Notes under the pieces: model-generated
Told to the model about the DNA's origin: nothing
What the model saw: only the letters and a program-made list of their open reading frames with translations
The model's database searches: none
Shown here: in pieces, positions 23,841-63,801 of the stretch
Layout of the letters: each line of letters starts with the position of its first letter
Numbering within the stretch: position 1 is the first letter of the stretch
Made by a program: the position numbers and the translations under genes
Assembly (NCBI GenBank): GCA_902805735.1
Contig: CADCTW010000002.1
Span: 1-64,000 of the forward strand
Origin: an uncultured Gemmatimonadota bacterium
GTDB lineage: Bacteria; Gemmatimonadota; Gemmatimonadetes; Longimicrobiales; Longimicrobiaceae
Direction: 5' to 3'
Length of the DNA: 64,000 nt

Positions 23841-23888
23841 CTCACACGGAGGGCGGGATTCTTCATCCCTCCGTGTCCTCCGTGTGAG
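23841..23888. repeat. CACACGGAGG-type inverted repeat, variant of the CACAGAG family
   Basis: CTCACACGGAGG (23841-23852) ... CCTCCGTGTCCTCCGTGTGAG (23868-23888), between convergent NRPS2 and P450. Confidence 0.7.
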
Positions 23889-36805: not shown

Positions 36806-36824
36806 CTCACACAGAGACACAGAG
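36806..36824 (+). repeat. CACAGAG-family arm immediately upstream of the GxxExxY gene
   Basis: CTCACACAGAGACACAGAG ends 5 bp before the start codon at 36830. Confidence 0.9.
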
Positions 36825-36829
36825 AAAAG

Positions 36830-37231
36830 ATGAGGGAGATCAACGAGGTCACGCGGGAGGTCGTGGATGCGGCGTATGGGATCCACAAGCGGCTGGGGCC
36901 GGGGCTGCTGGAGAGTGTGTACGAGGCGGTACTCGCGCAGGTCCTGGCGCAGCGCGGGTTTGCCGTCCAGCCCCAGGCGAAGATCTCATTCGGGTACGAG
37001 GGGATCAGGATCGAAGAAGGGTTCAGGATCGAGCTGCTGGTCGAGAAACTCGTCGTCGTGGAGTTGAAGTCCGTCGAGACCCTCGCCCCCGTGCATGCGA
37101 AGCAGGTCCTCACCTATCTTCGCGTACTCGACCTGCCGGTCGGCCTCCTCATCAACTTCGGCGCGCCCACGCTCAAGGCCGGCATCCGCCGCATCGCCAA
37201 CACGCACTCCGCGACCCTCCCTCGCCGTTAA
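36830..37231 (+). CDS. GxxExxY family protein (PD-(D/E)XK nuclease-like)
   Basis: 'INEVTREVVDAAYGIHKRLGPGLLESVYEAVLAQVL...VELKSVETLAPVHAKQVLTYLRVLDLPVGLLINFGAPTLKAGIRRI' matches the family signature. Confidence 0.93.
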   Translation: MREINEVTREVVDAAYGIHKRLGPGLLESVYEAVLAQVLAQRGFAVQPQAKISFGYEGIRIEEGFRIELLVEKLVVVELKSVETLAPVHAKQVLTYLRVLDLPVGLLINFGAPTLKAGIRRIANTHSATLPRR

Positions 37232-37266
37232 CTCTGTTTCTCTGTGTCTCTGTGGCTCTGTGTGAG
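37232..37266 (+). repeat. CTCTGTG-family arm immediately downstream of the GxxExxY stop codon
   Basis: CTCTGTTTCTCTGTGTCTCTGTGGCTCTGTGTGAG begins at the base after TAA (37229-37231). Confidence 0.9.
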
Positions 37267-38448: not shown

Positions 38449-38475
38449 CTCTGTGTCTCTGTGCCTCTGTGTGAG
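38449..38475 (+). repeat. CTCTGTG-family single arm
   Basis: CTCTGTGTCTCTGTGCCTCTGTGTGAG, 8 bp after the aminotransferase stop. Confidence 0.9.
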
Positions 38476-38486
38476 ACCTCTGTTGG

Positions 38487-38518
38487 CGCGGCTGGTTCCC
38501 GAACGGGAACCAGCCGCG
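38487..38518 (+). terminator. Strong hairpin, terminator-like, after the aminotransferase gene
   Basis: CGCGGCTGGTTCCCG-AA-CGGGAACCAGCCGCG, perfect 15-bp inverted repeat followed by TTCCTAAAACGG. Confidence 0.6.
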
Positions 38519-38553
38519 TTCCTAAAACGGAACAGGGAACACGCCGCGGGGGA

Positions 38554-47134: not shown

Positions 47135-47161
47135 CTCTGTGTCTCTGTGTCTCTGTGTGAG
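47135..47161 (+). repeat. CTCTGTG-family single arm
   Basis: CTCTGTGTCTCTGTGTCTCTGTGTGAG between the divergent/tandem minus-strand genes. Confidence 0.9.
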
Positions 47162-49544: not shown

Positions 49545-49608
49545 CTCACACAGAGACACAGAGGCACAGAGATCAGTTCTTCTCTGTGCCTCTGTGTCTC
49601 TGTGTGAG
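49545..49608. repeat. CACAGAG-family complete palindromic copy
   Basis: CTCACACAGAGACACAGAGGCACAGAG (49545-49571) and its exact reverse complement (49582-49608), 10-nt loop. Confidence 0.95.
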
Positions 49609-52838: not shown

Positions 52839-52865
52839 CTCCGTGTCTCTGTGTCTCTGTGTGAG
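52839..52865 (+). repeat. CTCTGTG-family single arm
   Basis: CTCCGTGTCTCTGTGTCTCTGTGTGAG. Confidence 0.88.
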
Positions 52866-63738: not shown

Positions 63739-63801
63739 CTCACACAGAGACACAGAGGCACAGAGAAAAGCTTATCTCTGTGCCTCCGTGCCTCTGTGTG
63801 A
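63739..63801. repeat. CACAGAG-family palindromic copy
   Basis: CTCACACAGAGACACAGAGGCACAGAG (63739-63765) and CTCTGTGCCTCCGTGCCTCTGTGTGA (63776-63801). Confidence 0.93.

Follow-up and report, generated by a model that had tools for sequence, protein, structure and literature searches.

Among described systems, the REP/REPIN elements and their RAYT enzymes (TnpA-REP, Y1/HUH class) come closest to the locus analysed here. Both consist of short, mostly intergenic palindromes in hundreds of copies, with a single-copy resident gene between inverted copies, gene-less derivatives and species-specific sequence classes. REP sequences carry GTAG and CGTC tags, and CGTC-tagged palindromic repeats with no assigned transposase occur in several phyla (PMC3733652). 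The repeats examined here are likewise palindromic, intergenic and spread over several phyla, but they have no CGTC tag and an enzyme gene lies between their arms. That enzyme is a PD-(D/E)XK protein (TIGR04256/PF13366) rather than an HUH/Y1 enzyme, and the arms are rows of lineage-specific 7-base units ending in CTCAC/GTGAG or ACCAC/GTGGT, with no GTAG tag. Having neither an HUH/Y1 enzyme nor the tag, the system lies outside the REP/RAYT family as that family is defined, and should the nuclease be found to move the repeats, it may constitute a kind of its own.

Two other comparisons were made. As in MITE/IS pairs, the gene-less copies have the ends of the gene-bearing copy; unlike them, the gene copy appears to stay in place within the family, there is no DDE transposase, and the arms nearly abut the ORF. 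Nucleases of the Cas4, RecB-type and lambda-exonuclease group (SSO0001, 4ic1) provide the nearest solved fold and belong to a superfamily with D...E-x-K active sites. Cas4 differs in length (about 200 residues against 133), the profile similarity is weak, and no adjacent cas genes were seen in the window.

To our knowledge, GxxExxY proteins form a widespread family with no assigned function. Arrays such as CGCAAAGACGCAAAG and CACAGAGACACAGAG are dispersed in genomes of many phyla. The search covered the open-licence literature and found there neither an explanation of these arrays nor an account of the pairing of the repeat with GxxExxY.

The locus and its predicted nuclease

The window is the whole stretch of 64,000 nucleotides that was analysed. 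Its genome is designated G000 and the comparison genomes carry other G-numbers; L-numbers denote the loci compared. The features of the window were as follows.

23869..23888, plus strand: CTCCGTGTCCTCCGTGTGAG, a related single arm with spacing 2, assigned with less confidence
36806..36824, minus strand: left arm CTCACACAGAGACACAGAG, 5 bp upstream of the ATG
36830..37231, plus strand: GxxExxY / PDDEXK_3 gene, 133 aa, predicted PD-(D/E)XK fold, TAA at 37229-37231
37232..37266, plus strand: right arm CTCTGTTTCTCTGTGTCTCTGTGGCTCTGTGTGAG, beginning directly after the stop codon and ending GTGAG
38449..38475, plus strand: unpaired single arm 3' of the aminotransferase gene
47135..47161, plus strand: single (unpaired) arm, 15-mer match
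49545..49608, no strand assigned: gene-less hairpin of 64 bp, perfect 28-bp stem, folding z -11.3
52839..52865, plus strand: single (unpaired) arm, 15-mer match
63739..63801, no strand assigned: gene-less hairpin of 63 bp, near-perfect stem, folding z -8.4

The preliminary description had the left arm end 5 bp before the ATG and the right arm start immediately past the stop; both coordinates are exact, and the spacer before the ATG at 36830 reads AAAAG. The two gene-less palindromes it listed are real and fold as long stems, but its list missed the single arms at 38449, 47135 and 52839 and the copies in the rest of the genome. The core 15-mer CTCTGTGTCTCTGTG has 18 window matches at no more than 2 mismatches (0.11 expected) and 1,245 exact copies (618+627) in the 5.8-Mb genome, which holds one GxxExxY gene. 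The gene-less hairpin derivatives that the description suggested number in the hundreds. An Rfam 15 search of the window gave 0 matches to known structured RNAs above the gathering score.

The protein matched the profiles TIGR04256 GxxExxY (131.2 bits, cut-off 35) and PF13366 PDDEXK_3 (131.3 bits, cut-off 22) and no others, and the gene encodes no Y1/HUH transposase. An AF2 model (pLDDT 92.8) had Cas4 SSO0001 as its closest PDB fold, followed by MGME1, lambda exonuclease and the AdnAB nuclease, with high probability and E-values of only about 2e-3 and worse; tRNA splicing endonucleases were also returned. No solved homologue was detected by sequence search. In an alignment of 66 proteins E28, E78 and K80 were invariant and D68 was present in 65. 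By its fold neighbours and its D...E-x-K site the protein is a predicted nuclease of the PD-(D/E)XK superfamily, in agreement with the identity first proposed. The window protein is the sole member of the alignment with E in place of the metal-binding D68, so its activity may be reduced; judged from this residue, the most repeat-rich genome may have an enzyme of lowered activity.

The defence-system search yielded weak Cas4 profile matches alone (E 0.03-0.05), and assignment as a defence-system protein was rejected on that ground. A link of GxxExxY to reverse transcriptases or CRISPR was also set aside, the instance in PMC8934634 being an isolated annotation beside a CRISPR RT.

Two further observations were made in the window. 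Conserved palindromes, GTTCCCGnnCGGGAAC, lie at ~38490-38545, 3' of the aminotransferase gene, and recur at orthologous places in G001, G004-G006, G014 and G018; they are likely operators of the next operon. Comparison of window positions ~4000-30000 with G008:C108:36000-59000 gave many overlapping 65-72% matches among repeated blocks, which suggests large modular (megasynthase-like) genes.

Arms at GxxExxY genes and repeat load of genomes

Taken by itself, the bracket in the window genome carries little weight, because about 35% of the genes there have an arm downstream. Over 390 kb, arms were found 3' of ~35% and 5' of 10-22% of genes, and a left arm upstream together with a right arm downstream, within 60 bp, at 1.2%. 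A claim of significance from this genome alone was rejected as weak, and it is the comparison across species that makes the significance of the bracket decisive. The loci examined were 30 from the window's order, 80 named loci from many phyla, chosen by protein similarity with repeats playing no part in the selection, and a set from Cyanobacteria.

Upstream and downstream flanks matched each other in inverted orientation (score of at least 12) at 57% of 107 GxxExxY genes, compared with 1.3% of 240 control ORFs from the same loci and 0.2% of shuffles. The proportion with arms within 150 bp was 68% for genes of the order, 91% for the named loci (79-80) and 19/19 for cyanobacterial genes, against 1.4-2.1% of random windows from the same loci. 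On the upstream side most arms were left arms, and on the downstream side most were right arms; the full oriented bracket, left arm upstream and right arm downstream, occurred at 45% of GxxExxY loci and 0.6% of control ORFs (p=4e-19). GxxExxY genes are associated with hairpin arms, and the association, first noted at a single locus, holds across phyla. Annotated, non-metagenome examples include Bacteroides finegoldii NZ_OY725952.1, in which the gene lies between radA and a FAD protein with arms CACCACAGAGGACGCAGAGGACACGGAGGAG / CTCTGTGACCTCTGTGTCCTCTGTGGTG, Bernardetia, and Sphingomonas parapaucimobilis, in which it lies between fabD and fabG with the left array only.

The generic pattern CRCNRAGNCRCNRAG was counted in each genome, with its reversed form as control. 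An excess of repeats was found in 18/24 gene-positive and 1/93 gene-negative genomes of the window's order (p=4e-15), and in 51/91 gene-positive and 17/105 gene-negative genomes of a cyanobacterial order (p=6e-9); because the genomes within each set are related to each other, the p-values assume more independence than exists. Among 48 named carriers from many phyla, most were enriched relative to the reversed pattern, and some carriers had few repeats. Independence of the repeats from the gene, which would have told against the pairing first proposed, is thus not the general picture, but it does describe the 17 repeat-rich, gene-negative cyanobacteria, in which neither TIGR04256 nor PF13366 had a match. 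Either a substitute enzyme or a gene lost in the past would account for these genomes. Cyanobacteria rich in CGCAAAG-type repeats with no TIGR04256 or PF13366 gene include G297, G305, G313, G355 and G358.

Design and turnover of the elements

The arms are built of 7-base units, CRCNRAG (CTYNGYG in the right arm), separated by 1-3 bases, with outward termini CTCAC/GTGAG or ACCAC/GTGGT. Unit sequence is lineage-specific, and the hairpin design and the termini are kept, which provides a natural case of fast-changing repeat sequence with a stable design. At the gene itself the units are CACAGAG in the window, CGAAG/CAAAG in G004-G006, CGCGGAG in G002 and G014, CGCAGAG and AGCAGAGG in G008 and G018, and CGCAAAG in Cyanobacteria, further examples being CACCAAG and CGCCAAG. 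At one orthologous place, between fabD and fabG, Sphingomonas species have arrays of CGCGAAG, CGCGGAG, CGCAGAG or CGCGGCG depending on the species, and the units within one array have mostly been switched together. Several subfamilies also exist side by side within single genomes; in G005 and G006 the type found at the gene (CTTCGCG/CTTTGCG) is a minority beside CTCTGTG and CTCCGCG.

Elements of the window genome are 64-bp hairpins with loops of about 10 nt, in which the mirror order was identical in 51/51 pairs, accompanied by many half-elements. Among 154 arms the outer consensus was TGAG, and no REP-type GTAG or CGTC tag stood beside the palindrome. The elements lie directly 3' of stop codons, at a median distance of 9 bp and within 20 bp in 78/108 cases (rough gene calls). 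In G008 both arms of a hairpin had the same units in 19/22 cases (4.3 expected by shuffling, shuffle maximum 10) and stem identity was 0.90, compared with 0.63 for shuffled partners, which indicates that pairing is maintained although the sequence changes. A fixed 26-nt comparison of arms in G005 and G006 gave nothing beyond shuffling, probably owing to the many hairpins there with differently spaced arms, and covariation of the stem is therefore claimed from G008 only.

Individual elements come and go between related, congeneric species, and the empty sites that a mobile repeat should leave were found. The site of the window half-element at 38449..38475 is empty in G004, G005, G006 and G018; in G002 the corresponding place after the aminotransferase gene is taken by an element built of different units. 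Between G005 and G006, whose flanks are ~92% identical, ~18 real G005 elements could be mapped by their flanks and were classified by eye: 6 were missing from G006, and at most of the remaining sites the two species had elements that differed in unit type or in nesting. At one such site GATAGGAACGGCTGGC is succeeded by CTCACGCGGAGGCGCGGAG in one of the two species and by CTCACACAGAGACACAGAG in its relative. In several composite elements the loop of a CGCGGAG hairpin itself contains a CACAGAG hairpin. Inspection by eye of the few pairs of empty and occupied sites revealed no target-site duplication.

In 11 genomes of the family the gene occupies a single orthologous locus, between a QueG-like gene and an aminotransferase gene, and the arms around it differ from species to species. 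A second GxxExxY locus is intact in G008 (L056, G008:C57) and present as two fragments in G003 (L054, G003:C39), and some other genomes have several copies. Fixed at one locus in 11 genomes, the gene behaves like a resident RAYT and not like a hopping unit. The idea that gene and repeats move together as a self-hopping unit is accordingly not supported, and the loose analogy to REP/RAYT fits better than first stated, one resident gene being accompanied by many gene-less copies. Carriage as phage or plasmid cargo was likewise rejected: GxxExxY was present in 0/50,697 phage and 4/72,556 plasmid records, and 2 relatives were found in IMG/VR.

Proposed mechanism and its competitors

We assign a probability of about 0.5 to the main reading, namely that GxxExxY and the CRCNRAG/CTYNGYG hairpins together make up a previously undescribed enzyme-repeat system found across phyla. 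This would be the PD-(D/E)XK equivalent of REP/RAYT, its nuclease recognising hairpin shape and both copying and converting the hairpins by way of host repair. The explanation in which the window locus represents the resident, gene-bearing copy of such a hairpin family is given even odds. That GxxExxY acts on the repeat is judged somewhat more likely than not. Recognition, of an extruded cruciform or of the single-stranded form, would depend on the hairpin's shape and CTCAC/GTGAG termini, and the protein would then cut the hairpin or process its ends; repair off another copy would then leave elements copied or converted. We know of no strand-joining chemistry by a PD-(D/E)XK nuclease alone, and host repair must therefore be assumed. 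Cutting followed by repair from another copy would explain the replacement of unit types at the same site, which is the trace expected from conversion, as well as the jointly changing arms around an immobile gene and the co-existing subfamilies. A resident nuclease with hairpins spreading or converting in this way is the best supported mechanism and is put forward tentatively, at even odds at best. Counting against it are the 17 repeat-rich cyanobacteria that lack the gene, the carriers poor in repeats, the minority position of the gene's own arm type in G005 and G006, the E at residue 68 of the window protein and the failure to recognise any target-site duplication. By analogy, it would work like REP/RAYT with an unrelated class of enzyme. 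If true, it would give the widespread GxxExxY family a role and a testable function, name a source for a class of intergenic repeats that is very common in bacteria, and add a second enzyme class that sustains REP-like repeats.

The hairpins might instead be ordinary REP/BIME-like elements spread by another enzyme (a RAYT/Y1 transposase or an IS), GxxExxY being a passenger retained between two copies. Repeat-rich Cyanobacteria without GxxExxY agree with this, and Y1_Tnp (PF01797) is present in 9/14 repeat-rich relatives, the window genome included. It is missing, however, from the repeat-rich G004, G017, G031, G033 and G043 and present in the repeat-free G013 and G015, whereas GxxExxY is present in 14/14 repeat-rich genomes of the same set. 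RAYTs in these genomes are genes separate from GxxExxY. The one whose locus was read (L272, G005:C7, 3414-3752, minus strand) is bracketed by REPs of its own, GACCGCT..AGCGGTC, CGGGGG..CCCCCG, CGGGGGCT..AGCCCCCG and GTTCCAGCCG, with no CTC..GTG arms, so at least one related genome, in the same genus, has two parallel enzyme-repeat pairs. A RAYT as mover of the CTC..GTG hairpins was rejected on this locus and on the poorer presence/absence correlation. Chance passengers, moreover, would not yield one bracket across many phyla, and we consider the passenger explanation unlikely.

Two further explanations are judged quite improbable. The position of window-genome elements just past stop codons, the ability of the arms to pair across the whole transcript, and the tRNA splicing endonucleases among the fold matches would all suit arms that are regulatory or mRNA-end structures (a terminator, 3' stabiliser or RBS-masking stem), with GxxExxY regulating itself or processing RNA hairpins and recombination, not GxxExxY, responsible for the spread. 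Half-elements, however, cannot form a stem, wholesale change of units at one site between sister species is unlike conserved regulatory sites, and hundreds of gene-less copies require a copying process. GxxExxY might also be a hairpin-clearing or defence nuclease, either SbcCD-like housekeeping or a solo Cas4-like enzyme, selected in palindrome-rich genomes, the bracket being a protected or regulated copy. The resemblance of its fold to those of Cas4, MGME1 and lambda exonuclease, the weak Cas4 profile matches (E 0.03-0.05) and the strong co-occurrence of the gene with repeat load are compatible with such a role, but it leaves unexplained the tight arms around this very gene in most genomes and predicts fewer hairpins where the gene is present, the opposite of what was observed.

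An array of a different type, built of GGGAGAT/GGGAATA units, was seen at the site after the aminotransferase gene in G009 (L183-L185) and at the flanks of L044 in G029, where inverted copies of it stand on either side of a divergent GxxExxY gene.
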